The notes below the pieces were generated by a model, which did no database searches, was not told the origin of the DNA, and was given only the letters and a program-made list of their open reading frames with translations. This document shows positions 33,449 to 58,000 of a DNA stretch of 64,000 nucleotides, piece by piece; position 1 is the first letter of the stretch, and each line of letters begins with the position of its first letter. Both the position numbers and the translations under genes were made by a program. The stretch is from Auriscalpium vulgare (taxonomy: Eukaryota > Basidiomycota > Agaricomycetes > Russulales > Auriscalpiaceae): positions 372,001 to 436,000 of the forward strand of contig JAHBBC010000014.1 in NCBI GenBank assembly GCA_019915015.1, written 5' to 3'.

Positions 33449-33919
33449 ATTCGACTCGTAAGCCTGCGATGAGTTGTCAGCACATAGCATCTGCACCAAC
33501 CGCAACAGATGTACTTACTTTCGTGGACTTCCTCCTGAGACACTAGACCGGCGCTGGTTAGAAGATCGCGCGCGTCGGGCCTCAGCACTCTCCAGATCCA
33601 CGGCATCTCCCGATGACCCTCGCCCAGACGCTCCCGAATTTCTTGAAGCCTGCGCTGCCTTGCACTTTGAGGACCTTCACCAATATCCTCATCAGCGCCC
33701 CTCGGCGCACGAATATCTTCTTCGCGAAGCGGGCGCAGGTGCGTCTGCCACGAACCCCCTGTGTCCAGTCTTTCCAAGGCACCGTGCGACGCTCGGTAGC
33801 GTGAGACAGACAGGTGGAGCTTGTCATTGAACCGTTTGAGGGTGTCGCGTACACGGGTGTTTGACTTCTGGTCAGGGCCATCAACATGTACGTGTTTGTA
33901 GTATATTAACCCCATGCGT
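33449..33919 (-). pseudogene. KDZ transposase copy B, middle segment
   Basis: Minus-strand match to 57478-57950 of copy A. It encodes YKHVHVDGPDQKSNTRVRDTL, FNDKLHLSVSRYRASHGALERLD and EMPWIWRVLRPDARDLL, a conserved stretch of KDZ transposases. It is bounded by Gypsy-1 on the left (ATTCG) and Gypsy-2 on the right (GCGT, 33916-33919). Confidence 0.88.
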
Positions 33920-34575
33920 TGATAGGTTCAGGCCGCGGGCAAGCGTGTAGCGAGACGTCGCGAGACGGGGAAGCAGCATGCGAGGCGCAGGGTCGCGGGA
34001 GCGGGGGTGATGGGAACGTGGTCCGGCGACCCAGGAGCAACCGGGACTGGCGACGGAACGGATCACCGGAACGGGCTAGATCGGGAGGGCTTAGCGACGT
34101 AGGTAGAGCCACTACTTAGGGAGCTGCGCGAGACGTAGCAACCCAATCAACCTGTGGGCGGCGCAAGCCACCCACACCCTTTACCTCACAGAAACTGTAG
34201 CCTGAGGCGCTACCAGACTTAGGAAGGCAGGACCCCACCGATGTGGGAACAGGTAGGCAGGCGGACAGGCAAGAGGGGGTGCGACGGCCCATAGGCGGAC
34301 GCTTCGCACACGGGTGCGAAGCACTCGGAGGAGGATCCCGTAGAGGGCATCCCCAGGCAGGTGAGTGTTTAGTTTGGTGTTTAGGCGGTAGGAGGTGGCC
34401 CCGCACGACCGCGGGGAGGGCACGAAGCGCAACAGCGACACGAACACCTTCCCCCTCAGCAAGTCTAGTCACCCAGACTGGATCGCGACGTATAGGAGGC
34501 AGTGTTGGTGGTTGTTGTCCTGTGAGGCACTCGCCGCACGCCCCGCTAGGGTCCGTCCCGGGTGATAGCGTATCA
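33920..34575 (+). repeat. Gypsy-2 5' LTR
   Basis: 656 bases, TGATAGG to GTATCA. Its two differences from the 3' LTR are CpG against CpA in each case: GTGCGAAG here against GTGCAAAG, and CCCAGAC here against CCCGGAC. Confidence 0.93.
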
Positions 34576-34578
34576 TTT

Positions 34579-34596
34579 TGGAGCCCACCGCGAGGG
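34579..34596 (+). promoter_or_regulatory. Candidate primer-binding site of Gypsy-2
   Basis: TGGAGCCCACCGCGAGGG starts three bases after the 5' LTR. It begins with TGG, as expected for pairing with a tRNA CCA end, and its complement looks like a tRNA acceptor and T-stem. The tRNA is not identified. Confidence 0.5.
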
Positions 34597-34665
34597 GTAT
34601 GGTGATGATGATCGTGTTCGAGCTTTAAAATCAGCCTCGTAGACGGCACCCGGTCGCTGATCAAC

Positions 34666-34992
34666 ATGGCGCCGAAGCCCAAGATAGCCCACCTCCCAAC
34701 GCGAACACAGCCGCAGAGGACCACGAGGGCGGACGCTCGCAATACGTTGCGACAGGCGGCCATAGAGACAGAAATCGAGGAACCACAAGACGAACGGGGG
34801 GAAGTCTCATCGCTATCAAGTCTGCCATCAGAAGAAGAGGATCCGCATGGACCGACCCTCAGTAGGGAGATCCGACGCGCCGGAGAGGACCCTAGGTCCC
34901 TGATCACAGGAGGGGATCGCGTCACGATCGAGGGACTAGAAGGTTTGCTTCTGAATTCTGATGGTGGCGATAGCGACCATCACACACGGCAT
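34666..34992 (+). pseudogene. Gypsy-2 gag, N-terminal part
   Basis: Starts MAPKPKIAHLPTRT and runs through an acidic segment (SSLSSLPSEEEDPHG) to the CAT at 34990-34992, where the CACTA-type element begins. The frame resumes exactly at 36981 (DPEGECSRNERV) when the insertion and one CAT are removed. Confidence 0.8.
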
Positions 34993-36977
34993 CACTGCGT
35001 GTTGACACCGGATTTGAGACGGGCGAGGAATGGGCGAAAACCCGCTTTTCGCCCGTTTTTCGACCAATCCGCTGAACCACTGAGCACCCGCTCAAATGCG
35101 GGCGAAGGGCCGAATTTCGACCGGTTTTCCACCGGCGATGCCTCAAATCACCCGCGCTCAACGTGGATGTAATCTGGCCTGATATCTGCCGCCGCTGCCG
35201 GTTGCTTTGCATTATATTCGTATCATAACCCCTTATATTATCAATATAATACTGTAAATGGTACACATATGCTGCCCGGCCCTGCCGCTTTATGGTCCTA
35301 GCCTCGACAGCACCGCGGATACTCGCCACACTCGCGCGCGGCCCCTCGCCACGGTCCAAAGCGGCAGGTTGACGGACATTGTGCGTATGAGAGTGGTGCG
35401 GGAGTCGTGCGTGAGTCGTGCGGAAGTGTCATCGGGTTTGCTTGCACAGGTAGCGCGGGCGCGGGCACTGAGGAACGATAATCAGTCTGTTGCATAGTCT
35501 CCGTGGAGACTGCAACGCACCTGCCACCACCACTGTCGCATGCGCGTCTCGTTCTTGACGACCCTGGTCTTCTTGTTGCGAGCTGCGCGCCTTGAGGTAC
35601 CCGGAGGCATGAATGGTGAAAGGGTGAGGGCGTATGCATGCAGGAAGGAGGCACAAGGTGGGTCAGTGGTGTCGAAGAAAAAGATGGGTACGCACCTGCC
35701 ACCACTGTCGCATGCACGTCTCCTTGACAACCCTGGTCTTCTCGCTGCAAACTGCGCGCCCTGAGGTACCCGGAGGCGTGAACGGTGAGAGGGTGAGGGT
35801 GTATGCATGCAGGAAGGAGGCACAGGTGGGTCAGTAGTAGACGTTGAAGCAAAGGACGGGGTACTTACAGAGCGCATGTAGCATGTATGCGTCGAGTGTC
35901 ATGCCCCCAAGACTGCAATAAGAGCCTGAGTCAGTATCTGATTGATAGAGAGACCGCGATGACATACCTAGTCGCCCAGCGAGATCAGTGGCATCCGACA
36001 GGAAGATGAGGGTATGGCAGGGTGACGAGGCTCGAAGAGAGTGCGTCAGCGCACTCGTTAGCACCAGGCATGTCACCCATGCATAGAAGGAACTCTTGAT
36101 GTGTTTTGTGGGTCTTGAAGCATCGGCTGCTCGAGAGACGAAGCTTGAAGCTGGAGCTTGATGTGCTGCCGAAGTGTCGACCACGGCTATGCGCATACAA
36201 CGCCGCAATCAGCACATCTGCATCAACTCGAATAATGAATTTACCACTTAGCTGTGCTGCCTGCTCTCATTAACAGGGTGCCGAAGGTCAACAGAACGGA
36301 GAGGGCAAGTCTTGGGGGACGATGGTGGAGGGCAGAGGCAAGACGCGTCGAGCCTGCCTCGCGATCGCAGCACCTTCCTAATACGGACAACGTGTCGCTG
36401 GGATCTGCGACTTGTCAATTCAAACTCTATGCTCTCTGAGCGCGTTTTCTCTCTTGTCTTTGCATTCAAAACACTAAGATACATCTCTGGTACGTTGTCT
36501 ATGGCTCGGTACATTTTTCCAGTCCACCGAGCTCACTTCACGAGGGTCAGAGACGCTGTGGCAATGGCACCGCCGCCGAAGCCTCCTCCGCCGAAAACTC
36601 TGCCAAAATCAAAACCGACTTCCACGCAGAACCCAACGGCATATGGATACAAGCTAGATTGCGTGGCTCAAGAACTAGATCAAGGGCTAGCGCATAGAGT
36701 GCATGTATGCAGTACGGAGCAGCAGGAAATGGCTAGTCGCGACCCGCACGCGCGGGCGCTACTGGACGCGCACACAGAATCACATGCACGCGGGTTGCGG
36801 GCCCGTACTCCGGTAATCACCCACAGTCACCCCACCCGAGAACACCCTCGAATCAGCCGTCGTTCACGCAAAATCACTGCTATCACCTGCATCGGATGAA
36901 AACAAGCTCAAAGACGGTTCATCAACCAATTTATATCCATTCCTTGCCCCGCTCAAATCCGGTGTCAACACGCAGTG
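34993..36977. mobile_element. CACTA-type DNA transposon, apparently non-autonomous
   Basis: 1,985 bases with terminal inverted repeats starting CACTGCGTGTTGACACCGGA. The first 26 bases match perfectly, and similarity extends to about 43 bases with a few mismatches. A 3-base duplication CAT lies at 34990-34992 and 36978-36980. CACT ends with a 3-base duplication are the mark of the CACTA/EnSpm superfamily, to which Plavaka is related. Inside are GC-rich subterminal words, a direct duplication at 35516-35864 and only short ORFs, so no transposase is encoded. Confidence 0.88.
35516..35864. repeat. Direct duplication inside the CACTA-type element
   Basis: Two adjacent copies of about 170 bases, each starting GCACCTGCCACCA and containing GAGGTACCCGGAGGC and GTATGCATGCAGGAAGGAGG. 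The copies differ by small indels and substitutions. Confidence 0.75.
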
Positions 36978-38708
36978 CATGATCCGGAAGGGGAATGCTC
37001 GAGGAACGAACGGGTCAGTCCGGGATGGGGACGGGCCGTTTCCTTACAAGATAGGACTTCGCGAAACGTCGCGGAAGCTAGCAACAATCCCCAAGAAGCT
37101 CCATCAAGCTGTTCGAACCCCAGCAACCCAAAGTCACCAACACAGTCAGGAATGAGCACACAGCAACAAGGAACAGGAACGGGTGGAGGAGGCGGCGGCG
37201 GAGGCGGAGGCGGTGGAGGAGGGGGAGGCGGCGGCGATGGAGGAGGGGGAGGCGGCGGACAACAGGCAATACCGCCTCAGCCCAACGTCGCGCCAGTCGC
37301 AATGCCTACCCGCGGGGACCGCAACGCACCGTCTTTCAATCAGAAAGCCCGCGAGTTACCGCGTTACTTCGACGAGCTGAACCATCTCTTTGCCCGGGCT
37401 CAACTAGCGGATGATACGGCGAAGAAGGGCCACGCAGTGCGTTACCTAGACGTCGCGACGGCTGAGGAGTGGGAAGCGAGGCCGGAGTTTAAGGATCCCA
37501 CCAAGACCTACCAAGACTTTCAGGACGCCATTGTTAAACTGTACCCGGGAGCCGATGAGGACCGCAAGTATACCATCGCGGACATGGACGCGCTTGTAGG
37601 CAGTCGGTACCGTCTGGGCATTGCGTCCGGCGGCGAGCTCAGCGAATTCTATCGGCAGTTCTTCGCGATCACCGACTTCCTGGTTAAGAAAAGCAGGATC
37701 TCGACCCGTGAGCGCGATATCGCGTTCCTTCGCGCTTTCCAGGACAGCCTCATGAACAGGGTGGCGACGAGACTGCAGATCAAATTGCCGGACCACGATA
37801 AAGAAACACCGTACCCCATGGCCGACGTACTAGAGGCAGGAGAGTACGAGCTGAGGGGCACTCCCTCAATCGTACCAGCGGTCAGCGCAGGTCCGGCAGT
37901 GGCGGTTGCAACGACGGAGCCTGTAATCAAAATAGAACAGTTTCAAGAAGCAATCAAAGCCGCGGTCGCCGAACAGTTCGCGCGGATGCTCGTCAACCAG
38001 GGGAACGGCGGAGGTCAGAGGGGTTATGGGGGTACCTCGGGAACTCAACAGCCGCGCGCCACGCAAGGAAATCAAGGCGGACAGGGAGGGCCGTCAGGAT
38101 GCCTTTTCTGCGGCCAAACGGGGCACTTCGTCAGGGAATGTATGGTGGTCCAGGACTACATCGCGACGGGTCGCGTATCTAGGGACCACAACAACCGGGT
38201 CGTTCTGAAGGGTGGAGGACTTATCCCGCTAGGAGAAGGCCCGCTGAAGCAGCGTGTGGATGCGTACTACGCCGGGAATCAACACGGACAGTCAGAAGCC
38301 ATGATGCTGACGACGATGGACTACGAGCCGGTGCCGACCAAAGTGCAGACAGTCGCCGGCCTAATCCAACTGACGCCGCAATTGACCGACGAAGACAGAA
38401 TGACGGAGCTCCAGCAGGAGATGGCAGTGCTCCTGACGGCCCGAGCGGAAAGGCAAGCTCAGAAGGAACGCCGGCAGGCCGCACTGGACGCGGGCGAGTT
38501 TCCCCAGGCAATAGGGCTGCTGCCTGGCGAGCGCGAAAGATCGCGACGAATTCCAGAGGTGGTCATTCCGAAGAGAAGCCGTTTACGCAAGCCAAGAAGC
38601 AGGTTTCCTTCGAGCCGGAGGCAGTCGACCGACCAGGGGAGACTGGGGATAGCGCAGACAAACAAAGGCAGGCCGACGAAGACACCACAGCGGGTGAGGA
38701 GCCGTTAA
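36978..38708 (+). pseudogene. Gypsy-2 gag, main part
   Basis: Gag after the CACTA insertion. It contains a long glycine tract (about 37184-37260), the gag domain (ELPRYFDELNHLFARAQLADDTAKK, AFLRAFQDSLMNRV) and a zinc knuckle, CLFCGQTGHFVREC, near 38100. Near the end, at roughly 38540-38580, the frame that makes sense changes to the next ORF (KPFTQAKKQVSFEPE), so the last 40-50 codons to the TAA at 38706 are probably out of frame. That shift could be mutation or programmed frameshifting. Confidence 0.85.
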
Positions 38709-39700
38709 CACCTCCGATCCATCCTTTCGCGAAGGTGCCCGACGCGGCGTACATAGGGCCGGCAAGTTACCAACGAAGCGCGGGGCAGCGCAAGGCGGAC
38801 CCAGCATACAATAAGGTCGCCCCGGTCCGCGACCCCGTAATAGCAAATAAGGTTTATGAGAGGGCCATGAATGCGGAGGTCACCTTGACACAGAGGGAGC
38901 TCATGTCCATTGCCCCGGAAGTACGCGCTCAAGTTCGCAACGTGGTGACCCCTAAGCGGGTCCCAAACGAGGCAAGAGTACCAGTAGTCCAGGCGATGGT
39001 GGAAAGCGAACCGGAGCTCTTTCCGTTCGACTTTGACCAGGACGAAGGGGCAGGAGAGGAAGAGAAGGTAGTGAGGGGATTCGCGGACCATATGCCCGAA
39101 ACCTTTCTGCAAGCCCTGGGACACCAGCCAACGGAGTTGCCCGAGGGGACGCGTGTAGGAGAGGTCATTGTGGAGGTTCTGATAGGAGATCTAGGAGAAG
39201 AAGGAGACGGGGAACCAGACCCCGAGCCGTTGGAAGTCGCCAAAGAATCGCTGGCCCTCCGTTCGGTTTTGCCACTAGTCGACAACCAAGCGCACATCGA
39301 GGCAGTCGTGGATCCCGGGTCGCAGATTATTTCCATGTCCGAGGACGTATGCCATTACCTCGGGCTGCATTACGATCCGAACGTTCGCCTGGATATGATA
39401 TCGGCCAACAAAAGTCGCGATAGGTCGCTAGGCCTGGCTAGAAACGTCCCGATGAAGATTGGGGGTATAACGCTGTACGTACAGGTGCATATCATCCGCA
39501 ACCCGGCGTACGACATGCTCCTGGGGAGGCCCTTTGACGTTCTCACGGGAAGTACCGTGCAAAACTTTGCAGACGAGAGGCAGACAATCACGATCACGGA
39601 CCCAAACACTGGAGTCATGGCGTCAATCCCCACTATTCCACGCGGCCGCAAGCGCATCTCGCGAACCCAGAAGCAGGGGGTGGAGGGTTTTCGCGACTAG
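38571..39700 (+). pseudogene. Gypsy-2 protease region
   Basis: A frame beginning with KPFTQAKKQVSFEPE and continuing through the ATG at 38735. It has the retropepsin-like core AVVDPGSQIISMSEDV near 39307 and the LLGRPFDVLTGS motif near 39520. The usual D-S/T-G triad is DPGS here. The frame ends at FRD-stop at 39698-39700, and pol continues in another frame that overlaps it (SRLEDLLEDQEEV), so a one-base shift lies near 39685-39700. Confidence 0.75.
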
Positions 39701-39705
39701 AGGAT

Positions 39706-42700
39706 TTGTTGGAGGACCAGGAGGAGGTAGGGCTGGTCGTGGGGTTCGAGCCCGATAAGCCTGATACTCTTAGAATGGAATCCCTGGTGTACCTCGAATC
39801 CTCGCCTACAATCGAAGATGTGCAGTCAGCTTATTTGTCAGTGTGCGACCTACCGGAGGAATACGCGGGAGTGTTCGCGAAGCGAGCGGAAGAAGGAGAG
39901 GAAGAGGAGGAACGAGCAAGAGCAGGGACGTTTATTTGGACGGCGGCAGACTGGGGAGACGGCGAGAGTGGGAGAGAAAGAGAGGAGGAAACGGACAGAG
40001 GTGAGCTACAGCCGACCGCGATGCAGCGCGAAGTCTTTGCGGCCACGAAGAAGCGTTACAAGCCAGCACACCTCAAGGTAAAGCCCATTCGTACGGACCT
40101 GCCGGAGCACTTCCGGATCCTCAGAGAGATCAGAGGGGACCCCCTGGCGGATATGCCGCCGCTCCCAGAGAAGCCACCGGACTTCGTACCCACGGGAAGG
40201 TACACCGCGGAACGTCGCGAACAATTTGACCGAGTCCACGACGGAGATTTCCTATGGCCGGAAGAAAGGAAGCTCATGCATGTGTTTATGTGCGCACAAA
40301 ACGAGGCATTTGCCTGGGACGACTCGGAGCGGGGGCGCTTCCGAGAAGACTTCTTCCCCCCCGTCACAATACCAGTAGTTCCGCATCGGCCATGGGTTCA
40401 GCGAAATATTCCGATTCCGCCAGGGATATACGACAAGGTCATGGCGCTCATCAAGACCAAGATTGCCGCGGGAGTCTACGAGGACTCAAACTCGTCGTAC
40501 CGCTCTAGGTGGTTCTGTGTGGTTAAGAAGGACGGGACCAGCCTCCGTATAGTCCATAGTCTGGAACCCCTGAATGCGGTGACCATCGCGCACTCAGGAG
40601 TACCCCCCTTCCCAGATCATTTGGCGGAGCAGTTTGCGGGGCGGCCGTGCGGGGGAATTCTGGACCTCTACGTGGGCTATGACGAAAGGAGACTAGATGA
40701 AGCCTCAAGGGACCTCACGACTTTCCAGACGCCGTACGGCGCAAAACGGCTGGTGACCCTGCCTATGGGGTCGACGAATTCCGTCCCGATCTTCCACGAC
40801 GACGTGACCTTTATTCTCCAACCGGAAATCCCGCATATTACGGTGCCTTTCATAGACGACGTCCCCCTGAAGGGGCCGGACTCGGACTACAGGACGGAAG
40901 GCGGAGGATACGAAACGATCCCCGGCAACAACGGCATAAGGCGGTTCGTATGGGAACACTTTAACAACGTTAACAGGGTAGTCCAACGAATGCGCTACTG
41001 TCATGGCACGTTCTCAGGATGGAAATCACAGCTGTGCGTACCAGAATTCTACGTGGTAGGGCATCGCTGCACACCGCAAGGAAGGATAGCAGACAAAGAA
41101 AAGGTCGCGAAGATTCGCAATTGGGGGCCGTGCACGGACCTCTCAGACGTACGGGCTTTCTTGGGGACAGTTGGAGTCCTGCGCATCTTTATCCGAAACT
41201 TTGCGCACCGAGCCCATGCCTTGACACACCTGACGAGGAAGGACGTCCCGTTCGAATGGGGACCCGAACAGTCGCGAGCTATGGAGGACCTCAAGGAGGC
41301 AGTCCTCGCATCACCAGCGCTCCTACCGATTGATTACACGTCGGAGGCCCCCGTGATCCTAGCGGTAGACACCTCGTACATCGCGGTGGGTTTCCTATTG
41401 AGTCAGGCGGACCCCAACGTTCCCCAAGACAGGAAGAGACGCCGATATTCTCGATTTGGTAGCATCGCGCTAAACGATCGCGAAGCGCGGTTCTCGCAGC
41501 CCAAGCTGGAGCTCTATGGTCTTTTTCGAGCCCTGCGGGCCCTTAAAGTCTACCTGATAGGGGTGAGGAACCTGACCATTGAGGTCGACGCCAGGTATAT
41601 CAAAGGCATGCTGGAAAATCCTGACCTCGAGCCATCGGCCAGTATGAACAGGTGGATTATAGGCATCCTGATGTTCCATTTTGAGCTAGTGCACGTGCCG
41701 GGACTCTTCCACGGGCCCGACGGCCTATCCAGGAGGCGTAGGCAACCAGGAGACGCTCCGGAACAGGAAGACGACTTCGACGACTGGGTTGATGCGGTGT
41801 ATGGTTTCGCACATATTGTAAACATGGTAGTCCCGAAGACAGCGCAAGAGAGAGCCTCGCGACGGCAAGCTGGATGGACGGGGCCAGGAAGCATACCAGA
41901 CGAACATGGGGCTGGTTCAAGCCAGGACGCGATACGTCGCGAGGAGGCCCGGCGCTCCCACGATGAACCGGCCGATGTCTGGGCAACTACGGTCCAAATG
42001 CAACCCGCACCAGCACAGGACGCGACGTATCGCGATGTTCCCAGATCAGACAAGGCTCATGAAGCTGATAAGCGGCTGGAACTAGTCAGGGACTGGTTAG
42101 GGACCCTGGCGCGGCCGGCGGACTTGACCGACGAACAGTTCGCTCGTTTCGCTAGATACGCGCTCCAGTTCTTCAGGGATGGGGACCGCCTTTTCAAAAG
42201 GCACCACCAAGGCAGGCACCAACTCGTGCTGGGAGGAGACCGACGTATCGCGGTCCTCAAAGCAGCTCATGACGATGTCGGACACAAAGGCGTCTACGCG
42301 ACGCGGATGATGCTGTTGGAGCGTTTCTGGTGGCCATACGTGGACGCAGACGTGGCCTGGTGGGTGAGAACGTGCCATATTTGCGAAACCCGACTAGTTC
42401 GCCACAGCCTGATACCGCCAACGGTGGCAACGCCGGCGAACCTTTTCGCAAAGATGTATGCAGACACCATGCATATGCCAGCAAGCGACGGATTCAAATA
42501 CATCGTGCAAGGACGCTGCTCCGTAACCCACTATCCAGAGTGGAGAATGCTAAGGGCGGAGACGGCGGACGCCATCGCGAAATGGATTTTCGAAGACGTC
42601 TTGTGCCGGTGGGGCGCCCTGCGAGAAGTGGTCACGGACAACGGCGCACCGTTCATGTCGGCCTTGGAATCCCTGTCGCATAAGTATGGAGTCCGGCACA

Positions 42701-42826
42701 TTCAAATATCGGGATATAATTCGCGAGCCAACGGAATAGTCGAGCGGTCGCACTTCGACGTACGTCAAGCGCTCTACAAGGCAGCTGATGGAAATGCTGC
42801 AAAATGGTCCTCGGTCGCGTACTCGG
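39706..42826 (+). pseudogene. Gypsy-2 pol: RT, RNase H, integrase (5' part)
   Basis: RT with WFCVVKKDGTSLRIVHSLEPLN, GGILDLYVGYDERRL and the catalytic FIDD (in VPFIDDVPLKGPD near 40850). RNase H shows LAVDTSYIAVGFLL, KLELYGLFRALRALK and VDARYIKGML. The integrase finger is HDDVGHKGVY... CHICETRL; its core has ADTMHMP, VTDNGAPFMSALE and GYNSRANGIVERSHFDVRQ with the catalytic glutamate. The ORF is open but is cut at AYSV by the solo LTR beginning at 42827; its last codons to 42846 are foreign. Confidence 0.9.
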
Positions 42827-44203
42827 TGATGGGTACCAGCCGGTAGTAGGGCGGTAATGTCTTGTATACCTATCCCTAGAGCACAGTGCACGGTACCGTT
42901 GTGTGAGGAGCGAGTCGTCAGTGGTCCCGAAGTCTCCGGGAGCGTCTCCGAAGTGGGAATGGGGTGGTCGTAGCGTGATAGCAGTGAGTTCGGGAGTGAT
43001 CCAAACTAGGAAGGACGAGGAAGTGTGGGGATGTTACGATCTGCGGGGTGTCGAGTGGTCGTGCAACGTAGGCAAAGTCGAAGTTGAATGCCGTGGTTCC
43101 GAAGTGCCGAGGTGATGGAGTCGAAGTGCCGAAGTGATGGAGCCGAAGTGCCGAAGTGATGGAGCCGAAGTGCCGAAGTGATTGGGTCGAGGATGGAGTC
43201 GAAGTCGAAGTTGAATGACAAAGGAGGGTACGAAAGGCGAATACGATACGTGCGTCAAAGGCGAAGTCGAAGTCGGAGTCGAGATCCAAAGTCGAAGTCA
43301 AATACTATACGTGCGGCGTGCGGCGAAGGCGAAGTCGAAGTCGAAGTCGAAAGGTGCAAAGTCAGAAACGCTTTGACAATGCGAGAGGTCGAGGAGAGTC
43401 TCTAGCGTGAGTCTCACTATGAGGGGGAAGAAGGGGGCATATGATATGATGCAGAATATTGTACTGACAAGTCCTATATATACTACGAGTGAGTCCGAAG
43501 TAATATACAACCGTGCGAACAAACAAGGGCATAAGTAGAACGAAACACGAAGCAAGTGGGTCAAGATCACAAGAAATGAGTAAGTCCCAAGCAAACGGTA
43601 AGTCGAACGCCATTGTTAGGAAGCCTGAGAAGAGTAGTCATGAACCCTAAGACAATGAAACATAAGGGACTCCACAGTGGGATTGTGCGCCTAACTTCGG
43701 AACGCGTTCCGAAGTCGCTGCGGCTATCGTCCGAAGTTCCGAAGTATTGCGTTGCATAGCGGTTCGACGCAGCTAGAAACGCAGCGAACCACATCTGGAG
43801 GGCTCGAGGTAGGGTCGGAATGGAGGGGACAATACTGGGAACGAGGGGGCAATGTTCTGGAGTGGATATGGCCTAGATGTGGCATAGCCCAACAATCTGT
43901 GAGTGTTTCGACTCTGGATCACGTTTGGGGCGTGTCTGATGATGATGGTCTTGTAAAGTCTGGACCGAATCACGTGCGGGCGCTTCGGAAAGATCCGTGG
44001 AGGCTGTGCTAGCGGGCCGAGACCGGTGCGAGTTCGGAATCCGAAGTCACGTGACTTCGGAAAGTTCCGAAGTGACTGGGTTGAAACCTCGGAAACTGCT
44101 GGCCAAATTCCGAAGTCAGGTGACTCTGAAGCGAAACTCTCGACTTGACGAAAGTTCGAAAATTGAAGTGAGATCTCCGCACACCGCAGAACCAGGCGTA
44201 TCA
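42827..44203 (+). mobile_element. Probable solo LTR (1,377 bases) in Gypsy-2 integrase
   Basis: Starts TGATGGGTACC and ends GGCGTATCA, the same TGAT/ATCA ends as the Gypsy-2 LTR. It is flanked by TCGG at 42823-42826 and 44204-44207. Removing it restores the integrase frame (TCG-GTA-TTC-TGG). No coding region is seen. It holds a TATATATA word near 43476, a 22-base tandem repeat (43103-43190) and GAAGTC-rich low-complexity sequence (43195-43350). It is unrelated in body to the Gypsy-2 LTR. Confidence 0.8.
43103..43190. repeat. 22-base tandem repeat, four units
   Basis: Units of AGTGCCGAAGTGATGGAGCC plus GA start at 43103, 43125, 43147 and 43169 with one to three changes each. They lie inside the solo LTR. 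Confidence 0.85.
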
Positions 44204-44207
44204 TCGG

Positions 44208-44857
44208 TATTCTGGTCGGACAGGATAACGATCAGGCGGAGGATGGGCTGCTCGCCATACTTCGCGGTAACAGGAACGCAGCCGCTAATGCCGCTGGATA
44301 TCATCGAGGCTTCATACTTGATGCCTCCGCCCGAGTCTCTACTGTCTTCCACAGACCTCATAGCGCGCAGGGCAATCGCCCTACAAAAGAGAAAAGCGCA
44401 GTTAAGGACCATCCACGACAAAGTCTTTGAAGCGCAACGTATCGCGGCGGTAAAATTCGAACGTGACCACGAAGCGACGATTCGCGACTACAATTTCAAG
44501 AGAGGCGACTTGGTCCTCCTACGGTTCACGCGGTACGAGAAGTCATTAGATCGCAAAATGCTTCCGCGCTACGATGGACCGTTCGTGGTAATTGGCCGAC
44601 GGAAAGGAGGACCTTACGTGCTTGCGGACCTCCACGGTGCGCTCTTCGACCGACCGGTCGCGGAGTTTCGCGTCCTGCCTTACTTCGCGCGAACGAACAT
44701 TGCGCTGCCAGAGTTGCCCGAATTTCTGGACGTCCCACAGTCCAGGGTGGACGAGCTACTTCATGGAGATAGGCAGGATCACGATGCCATTCATGAAGAG
44801 GAAGCAGACGACCCCATCCGGGAAGACGATGACAAGGACGACGAGATCACCGTCTAA
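44208..44857 (+). pseudogene. Gypsy-2 pol, C-terminal part
   Basis: Continues the integrase (FWSDRITIRRRMGCSPYF, TGTQPLMPLDI). Then comes the C-terminal SH3-like region (FKRGDLVLLRFTRYEKSLDRKMLPRYDGPFVV, GPYVLADLHGALF) and a strongly acidic tail ending EDDDKDDEITV. No chromodomain follows. Confidence 0.88.
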
Positions 44858-44877
44858 AAAGTACCGCCCAGCACTAC

Positions 44878-44914
44878 GGCGACTGAGGACAGTTGATATT
44901 TCAGTTGGGGGGAG
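44878..44914 (+). repeat. First copy of the polypurine-tract region
   Basis: Matches 50165-50201 at 32 of 37 bases and shares GGACAGTTG and TTTCAGTTGGGGGGAG. It lies 20 bases after the pol stop, where a normal element would have its tract and 3' LTR. Confidence 0.75.
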
Positions 44915-45329
44915 GATTAGACGGTGGTATTTAGGACTGAACAGCTGGAAGTACGGATGGAGACGAGTCAGCACGATAAGTCGAGGTCGCGAGCGCTAGC
45001 GAAGCTCGGACTGGGCAAGCACCGACTAAGGCTTCAAGGGTCTGGAACAAGGCTGAGGTCGCGCCGGAAACACGATAGGACACGCTCACACTGTGACACA
45101 AGCAATTGACTCTATTCACAACATAGCAGGATAGCAAATTCTATGTACACAGCAAAGAGGTAGCGACGGATAGCGAACAACTATGAACAGACCGATAACG
45201 AGCGGACAACACGACAGCGAGACGCCGAAACCCCCACCTAGGACACGAGGAACGCCCCCCGCATCGAAGCACCAAGGCCCTCTGCTGTTGAAGCAGGGGT
45301 GACTCCTTTTGAAGAAGGCTCGCAAGCGG

Positions 45330-47030
45330 CTAAGCGGCGGGCGCGGGGTCAGCGGGACCATCAGCCGCGGCGGAGGGCGGCGTGCCGACATCCTTGAAGG
45401 AGGGAGCGGCGGCGGTAGGCATGGTAGGGCCGGGGGCAGGGTCCGACGCGGGAGGAGCGGCAGAGGCGAGCGGCGAGAAGGGCGCAGCGGGAGCAACCGG
45501 AGGCACGGGGGAAGGAAGGCGAGAAGCGCGACCGACGAGAGGCACGACGGCGGCGCTAAGCAGCGGGAGGGAAGAGGCGATGAGAGCTGACGAGGGTGGC
45601 GCGAGGAGGAGGCGCGAGGCAGGCCTGGCCGGCGCGGGAGAAGCGGCACGCGACGCGGGGGGAGCAGGGAGAGGGATGCGGCGCGGCGGATCGAAGGGGC
45701 CAACCTGCGGCGAGATGAGGCCCCCGGCAGGCGCAGGGAACGCGGGGTCGCCGAGCTGCTGCAGGGTCCGCCAGACCCAGTTCCGCTCAGCGACGATGCC
45801 GCGGGCCCGGGCGTCGAGCGTCGCGTAGTTGACGCTGATGGTGTTGAGCTCCTCCGTGAGCGCGTTGTAGGTTCGGAAAAGCTGCGGCGGGGAGTCGTAG
45901 CGGAGGATGGGGACGGCGCCGGCAGGGTCGGGGTGGTCGGCCCAGTCGAAGGCGGAGGACCGGGGACGGACATGGATGCCGGCAGGGTCGACATCCTGCG
46001 AGACTCCGTCGCTGCCCACCACGTAGAAGTGCGTCCCGCGGACACCGTCGTCGCACTTGTGGTGGCCCACGAAGCAGCGATGGCACTGGCGGCCGCTGAC
46101 GTCCGTGAAGAAGCACGTGGGGTGGGAGTCCATCGTGGCGCAGCGGTAGCAGGGGGCGGAAGCCTGAGGGTCGGAGTGTGAGCGGCGCAACACGACGGAC
46201 AAGAAAAGGGCGACGTACCTGAAGGCGGCGGCCCGGGAAGGTGTCAGCGACGGGGATCTTGGCGCCCTTGACGGAGGTGGAAGGGTCGGCGGCGGGCGCG
46301 GGGGAGCCGGCCTCGGAAGAGGGGACAGTGGCGGCGGGCGGAGGCACGAGGGAGCCGGAGGGGACGTTGGCGGGGCGCTTGGAGCTGCGGACGGCTTTGC
46401 CCTTGCCCTTTGACTTGGCGGCGGCGGGGACTGATCGGGGGGCGGGGAGTTTGGTGGCGCCGCAGGTGCGCTGCGCGACGGGCTCCTGCGGGTCCCCCGC
46501 CTCATCTAGCTCGTCGACCTCGGCCTCGGCGTCAGCCTCGGAGGGGGCGGACTCGCGGTTGCGCTTGGTGGGCGGCGGGGAAGCGCGGGCGGCGGCGCGG
46601 TGAGGCGTGGAGGAGACGGGGGGGCGGACAGAAGGCGCGGGGAGGGCACTGTCGGCGCGGGCCCGCTTGCCAGCCTGACGGGAGAGGGGAGCGGCGACGG
46701 GAGTGGAGTAGGGGATGGCGGGTGAGGACGGCGTGGGGGAGAGGCCGGAGGACGGCCAGGCGTCGACAACGGCGGACACGGCCCCGATCCTGTCTAGCAC
46801 CTCGGACGGCGGGGGGTCCTCCCCCAACACCTCAGCATAGGCGGACTGGACACAAGGGAGGGTCAGCAGAGCGTCGGGAGCGAGAGGCCGTGGGCACTCA
46901 CCGTGGCCGACTCCCAGTTCGCGGCGAACTCGCCGTAGTGGGCGGAGTCGACGGTGGGGAGGGAGGCGACGAGCGCTTCTACGGCGGACAGCCGTTTCCT
47001 GAGGTTGATCGGGCGGGAGAACGCAGACAT
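45330..47030 (-). CDS. Antisense gene A: Zn2Cys6-like protein
   Basis: Exons 47030-46902, 46845-46219 and 46163-45330; introns of 56 and 55 bases are GT-AG and phase 0; 529 residues. Starts MSAFSRPINLRKRLSAVE. The second exon is disordered and Pro/Ala/Ser-rich with basic runs (KSKGKGKAVRSSKRP) and an acidic DAEAEVDELDEAGD. Exon 3 opens with six cysteines spaced C-x2-C-x8-C-x9-C-x2-C-x6-C (residues 257-289), close to the fungal Zn2Cys6 pattern (x6 rather than x8 is usual for the third spacing). A helical region (LTEELNTISVNYATLDARARGIV) and a long Ala/Pro tail follow. It is probably nuclear and DNA-binding, by analogy only. It lies tail-to-tail with pol. Confidence 0.78.
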
Positions 47031-47308
47031 GGCCAGGGAAGGGGGAGATAGGGAGAGGTGAGGGGAGGAAAGAGAGAGACGGAGAGGTCAAGGCGCAACG
47101 CGTCGCGTTAAGAGGGGGCGCCGCGCCAGCGTGTGGGTTTTTGCTTCCGACGTGGAAGCAGAGCGGGCCCGCCGGGCCGCGACAGGTGCGGCGCTTACCT
47201 TCACACGGCTTAGCGAGCGTTCGCGCGCGAGTCAAGAAGAAGGGATAGGGAACGGAATGGCATTACTGGGCCCTAAGGGCGCCTTGGGCAAATTACAGGA
47301 ATCGCTCG

Positions 47309-48544
47309 CTACGCGGGCGCACCGGACCCAGACGCGCCATTGGGCGTGGGAGTCCGGGCGCGGTTAACCCCATTCCTACGACCAGCCCGTCGACTCAGGG
47401 CATCAGGAGGCCTCGGGCCCACGACCTCAACAAGGTTGGGGACCCCCCACGAGAACGCGATAGAGCCGCGGCGGATGACTCGGTGAGTAAGCGGCGGGAA
47501 GGGAAGGGCGGTAAGCATACGGCGCATAGGACCGGCACCGGCGAGGTGGTCGAGGACCGCGGCAACTTCGCAGGCATCGTACAGCAGCTTTCCCGCGGTG
47601 CCTTCGAGGCGAGTGACGGCGTGGCGCAGGTGGCTGGCGTTCAATTGGTCCGCCCAAACGAAGTCGCGAAGCTCCGCGACCAACTTGAGGCCGGGAACGA
47701 GATAGTCGGTGGCCTCACGGACGTTCGCACGATGGGCAGCCTGCAACGAGGGACTCGCGGCCGCAAGGAAGTCGAGGACGCCAATGTCGCGGGGGTGGGT
47801 CATTCCGATCACGGCGCGGTTCAAGGGGAGCATGAGGGCCCCGACCAGCCCGTCGGCGTGGTCGAGGTCGTCACTCAAACGATCGAGGTCGCGAAGGAAT
47901 AACTCGGCAACACGGGTGGCAAGGCCGTCGGGACGGGGGGCAAACTCGGGGCCGAACAGCGCTGCCAAGTTGACCTCGAAAGTTGCCCGGCCGTGAAGTT
48001 GGTGACGGTACAGCAACCAAACGGAGCGCTCCACCAGGTGGGCCAAGGAGTCCACATGGACCACGTGAGGAAGCAGAGCGACGCTGGGTGGCTGCCCCGG
48101 GGCGTTGTCCCCTCCGAACGGAATATTTCCTACGATATTCGCGCGAATGGGGGCGGTTTGTTCGTACGTTTCGGGAAAGCGCTCCGCTAGGTAGGAGAGC
48201 GTCGAGACGACGGTCATGGACGCGAGGGCCGGTAGGGTAAAATGCGACGTCTCGCGATGGTCCTGCTGAAAAGGGGGGAAGGAGCGAAGACAACGTCAGT
48301 ACGAGGCCGGAATGAGGGAAAAGAGGGCCGCGGGACGACGCACCAATAGGTCGGAGATCTCCTGAAGCCAGGCAACGGCGGCCGCGGGAAATGAGGAAGC
48401 GTCGGCACCAGGCAAGGGCACCTCAACCGGATGTATCAACAGCTGGTACAGCCGGAAACGCGAAAACGCGCGGAGTAGGACGGCCTGCATGTGGAGGAGG
48501 TAGTCGGACGGACTGGGGCGTTGAGGGTTTTTGGAAAGGGCCAT
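47309..48544 (-). CDS. Antisense gene B: helical protein, paralogue of C
   Basis: Exons 48544-48344 and 48265-47309; the intron has a GTGCGT donor, 78 bases, phase 0; 385 residues. Starts MALSKNPQRPSPSDY; the frame stays open upstream to 48811, so a longer start is possible. The product is rich in leucine and alanine and predicted helical (LAERFPETYEQT, LAHLVERSVWLLYRHQL, LVAELRDFVWADQL), without signal peptide or membrane helix. It shares HFTxPxLxxM, LAxRF and an equivalent intron position with gene C. 284 bases separate its start from the end of C. Family not recognised. Confidence 0.75.
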
Positions 48545-48827
48545 CGTCGCAGCCCCCTCATATAGGCGGCGCGAGTAGGGGAAGAGGCACACCATCGCGG
48601 CGTCGCGATACAGCGCGAAGACCAAAACACGAGGGTCTCGCCGGAGTTCCGGCCAACGTGGGTTATCGCGACAGATCGCGACCCAGACGGAGCCTCCGGC
48701 ATGGGCCCAGGAGCTTATCGCAAGGCATCGCGAAACGTGGCACAGGGACAGGGGGAAGCCGCACATGGCTCCTGGTTCCATTTCAATAGCTATGGAACAT
48801 TCTACAGACATTGGCCCGGGAATATAC

Positions 48828-50076
48828 CTATTCCTCGCGCTCCATCAGAAGCTCGATCACCTCCCCCTCCTCGACTTCTTCCGAGCTGGCGATGGGCGGC
48901 GGTATCTCCCCGGCGTAGGTAGGAGACGCGGAGGGGGCCGTCGGCGCTGGTACCGTGGGGTGCGCGGGGAAGGGAAGAGGGCCCGGCTGGTCCGAGGGAT
49001 GGACTATGGCATCGAAGCCTAGGGGTATCTCAGCTATGGCTTGGGAGGAGGAGATGTGCGAGAGGCGCGCAGAACTGATCTGCTCGATGGCGCGAATCGA
49101 GGCCACGCTGATATCCTGGACCAGGAAGTCTGCGGGCTGGAGGTTGGCCAGGAGGCGGGACCCTAATCCCCATGCGTCCAGCATCCCGCCCATACAGGTT
49201 GCCATCGCGGCCCAGCGCATGTCGAGGCGATCCAACACCAGTGGCCAGTCCGCCCAAATATCGCGAAACGTGTCGAAGGCCTCGGAGATGGTGGTAAAGT
49301 CCCGTAACATATCCACCGAGTCCTCCGCGAGGCCCCCCAATAGGTAGTACACCACGCCCGTGGTGAGGCGGCCCGCGTAGGCACGAGAGTGGGGGGAGCT
49401 GGAGGCACCACGGACGTGGTAGGCCAGGGCGCGGCACACGGCGTCTTCGCGGGTAATAACAAACATCCCATGGACGGCCCGGGCGTCGAAATCACGTAGG
49501 AGCCAGCTCTGCATCCCCTGAGGACGCAGGGTGGGGAAGGCGCCATGCAACTCCGTGATTTCATGGAGGTAGGATTCGACAGAACCGTCTCCGAAGTAGT
49601 ACACGGTCCAGAGCCCAGCCTCCACGATGGTGATCAAGACGTGGAGTTCCGCGTCGGTAGCGTCGGCAGGGAAAGGGGAGAACATCTGGGACCACCGCGG
49701 GCTGGCGCGCGCTGAGTCGGGGAGGGTACGCATGAGGGTGCCCTCGAAGCGCTGGGCGAGAGGGGCGGACGCTGGAACGAGCTTCACCATGAACTCGAGG
49801 ATCGGCGAGGTGAAGTGGAAGGCAAGATCGCGCAGGCTGCGGGACGCGCGGATTGAAGAAAGGGTCTGGAATTGAGTTCATCATCAGCCAAGCCGGGAAA
49901 AGACGCGGTCGGGGACCAGCACGCACCACGAGCTGGTTGACTTTGTCGGCCCACTCTAGACGTAGCGCAACCTCCCGTTCGGCATCCCCAAGGTCAAAAC
50001 CAGCGAAGGGGGCCTGCGTCAGCAGGCGGAGGAGGTCGAGGTTGTCGGCGGTGGCAGACGCTGCGGGGAGGGACAT
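48828..50076 (-). CDS. Antisense gene C: helical protein, paralogue of B
   Basis: Exons 50076-49927 and 49865-48828; intron 61 bases, GTGCGT donor, phase 0; 395 residues. Starts MSLPAASATADNLDLLRLL. Motifs alignable with B are HFTSPILEFM, LAQRFEGTLM and VEAGLWTVYYF. Other segments include FDTFRDIWADWPLVLDRLDMRWAAM. The C-terminus is Pro/Ala-rich and then acidic (SSEEVEEGEVIEL). The start is 129 bases inside the 3' LTR edge; an ATATAAGG word on the minus strand near 50140 could serve as its TATA box. No family recognised. Open throughout. Confidence 0.78.
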
Positions 50077-50164
50077 CGCGGGACAGAAATCGGCAAAGGG
50101 ATGCTACAAGCGACGTTACCGCAAAAGGTCGCGAGCCCTTATATGCCGCTTCCGCACGGTTCCT

Positions 50165-50204
50165 GGCAACTGGGGACAGTTGCAGTTTCAGTTGGGGGGA
50201 GAAA
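50165..50204 (+). promoter_or_regulatory. Gypsy-2 polypurine tract and second copy of its flank
   Basis: TTGGGGGGAGAAA abuts the 3' LTR at 50205, as expected for plus-strand priming. The 37 bases from 50165 resemble 44878-44914. Confidence 0.8.
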
Positions 50205-50860
50205 TGATAGGTTCAGGCCGCGGGCAAGCGTGTAGCGAGACGTCGCGAGACGGGGAAGCAGCATGCGAGGCGCAGGGTCGCGGGAGCGGGGGTGATGGGA
50301 ACGTGGTCCGGCGACCCAGGAGCAACCGGGACTGGCGACGGAACGGATCACCGGAACGGGCTAGATCGGGAGGGCTTAGCGACGTAGGTAGAGCCACTAC
50401 TTAGGGAGCTGCGCGAGACGTAGCAACCCAATCAACCTGTGGGCGGCGCAAGCCACCCACACCCTTTACCTCACAGAAACTGTAGCCTGAGGCGCTACCA
50501 GACTTAGGAAGGCAGGACCCCACCGATGTGGGAACAGGTAGGCAGGCGGACAGGCAAGAGGGGGTGCGACGGCCCATAGGCGGACGCTTCGCACACGGGT
50601 GCAAAGCACTCGGAGGAGGATCCCGTAGAGGGCATCCCCAGGCAGGTGAGTGTTTAGTTTGGTGTTTAGGCGGTAGGAGGTGGCCCCGCACGACCGCGGG
50701 GAGGGCACGAAGCGCAACAGCGACACGAACACCTTCCCCCTCAGCAAGTCTAGTCACCCGGACTGGATCGCGACGTATAGGAGGCAGTGTTGGTGGTTGT
50801 TGTCCTGTGAGGCACTCGCCGCACGCCCCGCTAGGGTCCGTCCCGGGTGATAGCGTATCA
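50205..50860 (+). repeat. Gypsy-2 3' LTR
   Basis: 656 bases, same ends as the 5' LTR, followed by duplicated GCGT at 50861-50864. Because gene C starts just inside it, antisense promoter activity of this LTR is plausible (inference). Confidence 0.93.
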
Positions 50861-55008: not shown

Positions 55009-58000
55009 ATGCAAGAGTCGTTCATGCTTCAACTCTGTCCGCGCTATGGTACAGAAGTACACTCCCAAAACTGTGCCAGGGGTCTCCATGTACAGAGTTC
55101 CCTGCCGCTCAGCCGACTTGCACAACCCAAAGCTCGGCACACATCCATCTCGATTCCCTCCCAACGCCGCAAGCCTCGACACCACACCTCGCACTTTGAC
55201 GCACCGTTACCAACTGCCGATGAACCTCCTGAATCAACAGAGCCTGGCCATTCAGCGGAGTCAGCGAGCAGCGCCTCTGACCTGCTTGCAATCAACGAGC
55301 TGGAGGACTTGCCCACCAGGACGAACATAGACGTGTACATAACCGACAAGATGGGTGGGCGGAAGAAGAGGAGAAAAACCAGGGTATGTTTCTTTATTTC
55401 TTCCGCAATCCTCAGCTCACACGGTCGTCTTGCTCATCCAAGGTTGATCTTCTCCTGGAGTGGGTCGCTGTGCGCGACCGGTTTCTGGATGAGATCATCC
55501 GCCATAACGGCTGGGGATCTGTTGAGCCCGACTCTATATGCCCGGTATGCAATTCTGAAACAGCCTCGATCAAGTGCGAAGATTGTGTCGGACAGGAAGT
55601 TGTCTGCAACGCATGCTGTTGCGAGGCGCACACAACACTTCCTCTCCACCGCATCAAGGTGCGTTTCTTTCCTGTGTAGTATCCAGGCAATGCTGACGAG
55701 CATCTTAGAAATGGAACGGCCATTTTTTCGCCAATTGCTCTCTTGCCAATATCAGCCTGTGCTTTCAGCTGGGCCACGTCGGCCGTATATGCCCCTGCCC
55801 ACGCGACCAGTTGACCGCGGTGACATTTCCGGAGTCAGCACCGTGCGCGTTCGTTTCTGCGACTGCAAGAACGAGCGCACTGCAGACACGTACATCCAGT
55901 TCCTTCATGCAGGATGGTGGCCAGCCACGGTGTCGCGTCCTTGCACTGTGACTACACTCCGAACACTCAAAATATTCCATGCCATGTTGATCCAGGGGAA
56001 ACTCAACGCATACGACTTCTGATGCGGACTGGTACAGGGTACTGATGGAACCGGACTGTTTCGGCCGAAGGTTTGTGTGCACGTCATTGCCGTGGGCTGA
56101 TGCTAATGTTCCGACACAGGATCACTAAAAGGACTTTTTACAAAGGGCACGCTGCTTCTGAAACGTTCGGGCTTGCAAACGTGCCGGACGCGCACACGAT
56201 TCCACCGGCATAATGCGTAATTTGGTCTACAGATACTACAATATGGACTACCTGTTTCTGTCAACTATTGCAGGGCCGGCTTCAGGCATGAAGAGAATTG
56301 TACTCACCTATGACATTGCCTGTCAATATTCGAAGAATTTCCTCCGATGCATGGCGCAGTTCCCCAAGGAATTTCAAGTTGACATCTCGGAGACAGTGTT
56401 CATAATGTTGATCCCCAAGTTTCATCTCCTCGTGCACGGCCTGCCCTGTCAAATAGGATTCGACCTGAACAAGACCGAGGGCATGGAACAGACATGCGGA
56501 GAAGGAATCGAAGCCGGCTGGTCCGTCACGAATGGCGCGTCACTGAGCAAGCGTGAGATGTCAGGCGATGGAAGGCGTGAGGCCTTAGATGACCAGTTCG
56601 GGGCAATCAACTGGCGAAAGACAACAATGCTAGGTGAGTCGTGTTCATTGCTACGACTTGATTTCCCGCTCATGCTTGATCAAATAGGTCATCAACTCTC
56701 GCGATCGCTCAAGATTGCTATTGCGGCATACTTCAGGCAACACAAGGCTCTGGAAGAAGCTACAGCGACATTGCCAGCTGCAGTAATCAAGACATGGGAA
56801 GCGATGGTCCAGGACTGGGATACTGACAAGTCAAAGCCCAACCCGTATGATGAGCCCGTCAGCTGTGCGAGTCACGATTTTGCTTGCCCGCCCCTTCTAA
56901 CAGACCTTATCACATAGCGACAACTCTTGCAGACGTACGCCTTGAGCTAGCGCGCCAAGAGGCCGCCGAGATGGCGCAGGACGGCTTATTATCCATCCAC
57001 GAGACTTCAGCGAGCGCCTTTCTGACTACTGGGTTCGATCTTGAGGACCAGCAGTGCGTCTTCCTTGCTGTACTCCCTGACTATTCTTCAGAACTAACGA
57101 GTACTTCTGCAGGCAAGAGTTACGTGCACGGGTGTCATCTGAACAGTCGAAGACCGCCTCGGGCAAGGTCGCGCTCCAGAACAAGCGCAACGCCCTCCGT
57201 CATAGAATAACAGCCTGGCGTGCCATTCAACTTATCTACAAGCCTGTCGTTGTCGTGCTACGTGCGCAAGATGAGCAAGCCGCTGCCGAGAAAGCATCCC
57301 CTGGCACCACCCCTCCGTCTGCCGAAGACGAGCAGCTCTGGCTTCCATCCGAGGTTCCCCGCGATCTCTGGCCGGTGGGAATAACTGCCGGCGTCATCAG
57401 CAAGGCAACTCAACTCGCCTACGGCAAGCACAGGCTGAAGATGCGCTGCACGATGTCAGGCGCCATCTGCGCGTACGCATGGGGTTAATATACTACAAAC
57501 ACGTACATGTTGATGGCCCTGACCAGAAGTCAAACACCCGTGTACGCGACACCCTCAAACGGTTCAACGACAAGCTCCACCTGTCTGTCTCACGCTACCG
57601 AGCGTCGCACGGTGCCTTGGAAAGACTGGACACAGGGGGTTCGTGGCAGACGCACCTGCGCCCGCTTCGCGAAGAAGATATTCATGCGCCGAGGGGCGCT
57701 GATGAGGATATTGGTGAAGGTCCTCAAAGTGCAAGGCAGCGCAGGCTTCAAGAAATTCGGGAGCGTCTGGGCGAGGGTCATCGGGAGATGCCGTGGATCT
57801 GGAGAGTGCTGAGGCCCGACGCGCGCGATCTTCTAACCAGCGCCGGTCTAGTGTCTCAGGAGGAAGTCCACGAAAGTAAGTACATCTGTTGCGGTTGGTG
57901 CAGATGCTATGTGCTGACGACTCATCGCAGGCTTACGAGTCGAATGGATGAAGGCTCGTGCCTGTGTGCGCCGGTGGGCAGAGGAGATTATTCTACTCCA

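Follow-up and report, generated by a model that had tools for sequence, protein, structure and literature searches.

Three conserved antisense genes with introns between pol and the 3' LTR of a Ty3/Gypsy-type retrotransposon of Auriscalpium vulgare

Introns on the sense strand of a retrotransposon would be spliced from its genomic RNA. How, then, could a retrotransposon keep several intron-bearing genes, and what would it use them for? The question is raised by a Ty3/Gypsy-type element of the basidiomycete Auriscalpium vulgare, which spans positions 33920-50860 of a 64-kb stretch of contig JAHBBC010000014.1 (G000:C14:372001-436000; hereafter the window) and is flanked by 656-bp long terminal repeats (LTRs) with 2 substitutions between them. 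The genome searched for its relatives comprises 51.6 Mb in 96 contigs. An earlier note on this DNA had placed three antisense intron-bearing genes between pol and the 3' LTR, and this description held. The stretch between the pol stop codon (44857) and the 3' LTR is occupied by three minus-strand genes, A, B, and C (together, the block), and the four predicted introns that the note had named are all GT..AG, phase 0, and 55-78 nt long. We consider it reasonably probable that the element carries A, B, and C as an inherited accessory region that is read antisense, spliced, and serves the life cycle of the element itself, in trans.

Gene A (45330..47030, minus strand) has three predicted exons (47030-46902, 46845-46219, and 46163-45330) encoding 529 amino acids, including a cluster of six cysteines. 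Its first intron (46846..46901, 56 nt) is followed by a second (46164..46218, 55 nt) that lies 4 codons ahead of the first cysteine and has equivalents in two sister families and in a more distant locus, L043. Gene B (47309..48490, minus strand) consists of two exons (48490-48344 and 48265-47309) encoding 367 amino acids, with a 78-nt intron (48266..48343) 8 codons after a conserved tryptophan. Gene C (48828..50076, minus strand), whose 395-residue product is predicted to be all-helical, likewise has two exons (50076-49927 and 49865-48828), separated by a 61-nt intron (49866..49926) 8 codons after the same conserved tryptophan. More than one GT..AG pair would preserve the reading frame of each gene; those with a donor of the usual GTRNGT-like form were chosen, and the positions then agreed. 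P0001 and P0004, two gene models of Auriscalpium vulgare that are annotations and not transcripts, splice exons at the same place. P0001 is 86% identical to about one third of the window C exon, and the best genome match to a further protein, P0002, is 83% identical. Protein searches with C returned Auriscalpium vulgare hypothetical proteins only (1 match in one search and 4 in another) and no relatives outside Auriscalpium.

The block is not peculiar to this copy. Using zero-mismatch patterns, which make both counts lower bounds, we found the junction on the pol side of the block at no fewer than 54 places in the genome, and a direct junction of pol, tract, and LTR that bypasses the block at no fewer than 3. 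The 54 junctions rule out a nested insertion limited to the window copy, and they bear out the expectation of the earlier note that other copies would hold the block at the same place; copies lacking it, which the note had treated as telling against its proposal, numbered only three and look like losses. Some of the 54 places hold a rearranged block. In the subfamily represented by L035 (G000:C19:514800-520500), B is absent and the end of A directly meets C, and a search with C recovered several relatives of this type at 87-89% identity.

The same arrangement recurs in two sister families, fam29 (L031, L037, L038), with LTR pairs 13.4 kb apart, and fam26 (L032, L036, L039), with LTR pairs 13.6 kb apart; the usual spacing in the window family is 12.9 kb. 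In both, an open pol runs toward the block and is followed by antisense A, B, and C in the order seen in the window. Pol identity among the three families is 71-79%, whereas A, B, and C are only 21-34% identical between families. Beyond these, L043 (53% identity in the pol C-terminus) has an antisense A-type gene with one intron 8 codons after the tryptophan and another just ahead of the first cysteine, and L045 (55% in pol) retains the six-cysteine motif within a stretch that contains stops. Both appear to be distant Gypsy families with multi-exon antisense A-type genes adjoining pol. L042, from a family at 59%, showed no A in the one flank examined.

Conservation of the genes was assessed in the window and 20 further copies taken from about 50 near-identical ones; these were the copies ranked highest by C similarity, which biases the sample toward well-kept C. 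The GT..AG boundaries of the C and B introns were kept in all 21 copies and those of each A intron in 20, L021 being without A. Reading frames were intact in 20 of the 21 copies for C, 18 for B, and 12 for A, and adding 20 later-ranked copies gave an intact C in 36 of 41. The count for B assumes a start at ATG 48490, which gives a first exon of 49 codons, equal to that of both sister families; an alternative start at ATG 48544 was rejected, as it is out of frame in most copies and makes B seem broken. Intron columns were more variable than exon columns (19/250 versus 92/3936, p 2e-5, with L021 and L024 excluded), and the contrast was also present for C alone in its 36 intact copies (10/61 versus 81/1185, p 0.01).

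Ratios of nonsynonymous to synonymous polymorphism (pN/pS) were below 1 for each gene: 0.445 for A (31 synonymous and 36 nonsynonymous changes, p 9e-4, 20 copies), with the weakest constraint in exon 3 (0.61); 0.216 for B (10 synonymous and 6 nonsynonymous, p 0.003, 20 copies); and 0.37 for C (39 synonymous and 43 nonsynonymous, p 9e-6, 36 intact copies). The value for C was obtained after adding the 20 later-ranked copies and removing 5 truncated or broken ones (41 to 36). Three other estimates were set aside: 0.077 for C from the 20 top-ranked copies, biased since the ranking was by C protein similarity; 0.58 for C from a sample that still held truncated copies; and 0.81 for A from a count that had taken in L021. 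Over a longer distance, C of fam29 and C of L033 share 343 of 387 residues, with dN 0.057, dS 0.855, and a dN/dS of about 0.07. Because pN/pS is below 1, introns vary more than exons, and dN is far below dS in this last comparison, the frames appear to have been read as protein over time. These codon-level data indicate that selection on A, B, and C is purifying; with identities of 21-34% between families, the genes are fast-evolving yet constrained. Chance open frames in GC-rich DNA are ruled out by the pN/pS values, the intron/exon contrast, and the homologues.

A shared intron connects the genes to one another. The first exon stops exactly 8 codons past the tryptophan, in phase 0, in all seven B and C genes compared (B and C of the window, fam29, and fam26, and C of L033). 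An intron at this position is present in two of four A genes (fam29 and L043) and absent from the other two (window and fam26), while a second A intron, 0 to 4 residues ahead of the cysteine cluster, is common to A of the three families and L043. Profile comparison of B and C with hhalign gave a probability of 98.8 and an E value of 1e-16, by which the two genes are paralogues. The simplest history would be a single ancestral intron-bearing gene that was duplicated within the element. Because six B and C genes of three families have the same phase-0 intron, introns in this region must have survived a long period of retrotransposition. Sense introns would have been lost by splicing, and survival of these therefore fits their antisense position, as would be expected from established retrotransposition and as the earlier note had argued.

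The block is bounded by a repeated module. The sequence TTTCAGTTGGGGGGAG, with a hairpin of core CTG-NGGN-CAG ahead of it, occurs on both sides: the first hairpin and polypurine tract (44880..44914, plus strand) lies on the pol side, and the second (50166..50204, plus strand) abuts the 3' LTR. Fam29 and fam26 have three modules each, located after pol, between B and C, and on the LTR side of C; LTR queries starting right after the last of these recovered LTR pairs. No such module turned up between A and B, nor, in the window, between B and C. A bare stem proves little, given that 941 of 2000 random 45-mers also held a stem of at least 5 with a loop of 3-6. Across 10 distinct rows, with the fam26 pol-side hairpins in a shifted register, the aligned stem paired in 85% of cells, compared to 26-38% when slid by 1-3 columns, and 2 pairs had changed on both sides, which speaks for pairing, though in a small sample.

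Copies without the block carry traces of these repeats. The block-less sites are G000:C88:4483-12695, C18:976892-985155, and C87:7474, the last represented by one junction only. The two 8.2-kb copies have target-site duplications (TSDs) of CCGG and GCGG, and their LTR pairs differ at 0 and 1 positions; they transposed with normal TSDs and near-identical LTRs, and the block is therefore dispensable in cis. All three junctions mix both hairpin-tract repeats, with crossovers at two points: in the spacer between hairpin and tract in C18, and ahead of the hairpin in C87 and C88. This pattern fits loss of the block by template switching between the repeats on at least two occasions, with the reverse direction, a gain of the block, as the less likely course.

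A gives some hint of what the proteins might do. In the window copy the cluster reads C-x2-C-x8-C-x9-C-x2-C-x6-C; this pattern occurs once, at A, when the 64-kb window is read in its six frames. In an alignment of five A sequences no columns are invariant other than the six cysteines, which keep their order with a first loop of 8-10 residues and a middle loop of 9-14. Zn2Cys6 domains have the spacing C-x2-C-x6-C-x5..12-C-x2-C-x6..8-C. When the modelled cysteine domain was compared by Foldseek, all 14 matches at E up to 10 were Zn2Cys6 DNA-binding domains, among them 1cld, which we take to be one, and none was significant. A sequence search of the cluster against PDB chains gave 0 matches, and at E up to 10 PF00172 matched neither window A nor three A exons, with the exon of L043 in a wrong frame. 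A thus weakly resembles a Zn2Cys6-type DNA-binding protein in its modelled domain. The likeness to factors of the Gal4, PPR1, and Leu3 type lies in the order and pairing of the six cysteines, whereas A differs in its longer first loop, the absence of a PF00172 match, the mid-protein position of the cluster, and its carriage by a retroelement. For B and C, Pfam and structure modelling revealed neither a known relative nor a confident fold; the model of C exon 2 had a pLDDT of 57 and a best PDB match at E 0.44, nothing usable. The suggestion in the earlier note of a regulatory cassette is thus partly supported, by A but not by B and C, and its exclusion of structural retroelement proteins of known type would be a step beyond these data.

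The remainder of the element comprises the LTRs and the gag and pol region. The 5' LTR (33920..34575, plus strand, 656 bp) and 3' LTR (50205..50860, plus strand) both run TGATA...TATCA, and the TSD GCGT precedes the former at 33916-33919 and directly follows the latter. An inverted copy of the surrounding host repeat (57098-57945) represents the empty site, and the 4-bp overlap of its arms is the TSD GCGT. On the plus strand, a gag-type open frame (36900..38708) has a CCHC zinc knuckle (PF00098, score under the curated cut-off), and an aspartic protease frame (38183..39700) matches PF13650. Pol (39538..42846) contains the RNase H-type reverse transcriptase domains PF17919 and PF17917, then the integrase H2C2 domain PF17921, and its C-terminal part, up to the stop codon, lies at 44200..44857. 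The order of protease, reverse transcriptase/RNase H, and integrase is that of Ty3/Gypsy, and RNase H is followed by integrase in L036 and L037 as well; the reverse transcriptase core PF00078 gave no match at E 0.01 in pol of the window, L036, or L037.

The window copy is damaged, its pol being broken by a repeat of about 1.3 kb (42860..44180, plus strand), whereas most other copies have a long unbroken pol frame, which in many of them is 1312 residues. Comparison of genome repeats suggests that the insert probably represents a solo LTR from a different element family, because elsewhere it often occurs in pairs about 3.2-3.3 kb apart. The window copy exceeds the LTR spacing usual for its family by about 3.4 kb, and the pol insert leaves roughly 2 kb extra, perhaps within 34580-36900, which holds two 102-nt direct repeats (35554 and 35723). 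Separately, a flank of one fam26 copy (L032 1-946, minus strand) encodes a transposase-like protein, presumably of the Plavaka/KDZ type.

Elements of this kind are already known. Antisense accessory genes are described in the plant Gypsy elements Grande, RIRE2, and Retand (PMC7264820), and in Retand the proposed DNA binder TRP28 is reported to be nearly always encoded antisense (PMC11963269). As portrayed in these sources, they resemble the window element in the place, orientation, and presence in most copies of the genes and in the suspicion that the products are DNA-binding or nuclear proteins. The window element differs in its three genes (two of them paralogous), its conserved introns, its fungal host, and the lack of a Pfam match to the TRP28 domain (PF04195) in A, B, or C; the main text of the Retand paper makes no mention of introns (PMC11963269). 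The earlier note knew of nothing similar in a fungus, which does not stand: Boty of Botrytis cinerea is a Gypsy-type element with the antisense gene brtn (PMC7264820, PMC8365987, PMC4227169), although the available descriptions report one antisense gene there and the window element has three. Extra polypurine tracts upstream of the 3' LTR also have precedents, in the Sireviruses, which have them between pol and the 3' LTR, the terminal tract being accompanied by an inverted repeat, and in Athila4 and Calypso, with one extra tract each, according to PMC2829016. Those are plant elements, the Sireviruses being Ty1/copia, whereas the window element is fungal and its tracts each have their own hairpin ahead, flanking the antisense genes or, in fam29 and fam26, separating them. 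We did not find a fungal three-gene or spliced antisense set, or tract-hairpin modules between antisense genes, in the literature searched, which included few subscription papers. What appears to be new is the conserved three-gene antisense set, with predicted splicing and paralogues, together with the modules between antisense genes.

We propose that host RNA polymerase II would read A, B, and C from the opposite strand, using promoters of their own, and that the host would splice them, while in the plus-strand genomic RNA the antisense introns would go unrecognised and pass through reverse transcription. A would probably be a nuclear DNA-binding protein of the Zn2Cys6 type, and B and C diverged duplicates of one helical protein. 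Acting in trans, the proteins could control transcription of the element or the way its DNA reaches the host genome, in line with proposals for plant Gypsy antisense genes. The element probably uses A, B, and C, because they have been kept through long evolution, and perhaps it uses them as regulators. More tentatively, and with doubt outweighing belief, the block could be pictured as an "accessory operon" on the opposite strand, with a Zn2Cys6-type regulator (A) and paralogous helical effectors (B and C), spliced and delimited by repeated hairpin-tract modules; template switching of reverse transcriptase at these modules would allow antisense genes to be gained or shed.

Other explanations must be weighed against use by the element. 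The proteins might target the host instead: B and C might counter silencing, for example, or the set might promote movement from nucleus to nucleus or cell to cell, with A doing no more than regulating them. Host-interacting proteins often diverge quickly, as A, B, and C have done relative to pol, and the restriction of the C relatives found to Auriscalpium agrees with this; however, fast divergence also fits relaxed accessory genes, and the dN/dS of about 0.07 between two related families speaks against such a role for C, so we think this explanation unlikely. A review of the plant cases raises the possibility that antisense transcription itself matters (PMC7264820), with antisense or double-stranded RNA limiting the element and the proteins being secondary. 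Purifying selection at the level of codons, and introns and cysteines conserved across families, would be unexpected of a non-coding role, which makes this improbable here. Very little credence is given to the block being nested or captured host sequence that hitchhikes without selection for the element: the three block-less copies counted transposed recently and 9 of 21 copies have a broken A, as hitchhiking would allow, but the block sits at the same place in 54 junctions, keeps its gene order across three families with pol identities of 71-79%, and has pN/pS values below 1.

Plant LTR retrotransposons were found years ago to hold antisense genes, which still lack a known function. The element from Auriscalpium vulgare is a compact counterpart in a fungus: it combines three genes and their conserved introns with data on selection, and it has both young, near-identical copies and natural ones without the block, which makes function open to genetics. 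The intron that its genes share shows directly that a retrotransposon can retain an intron lying antisense. If the operon-like arrangement were true, the element would have a built-in means for the modular gain and loss of accessory genes, an organisation comparable with that of complex retroviruses, but backwards. Should A prove to be a Zn2Cys6 factor encoded by the element, a retroelement would be carrying a regulator of fungal type.

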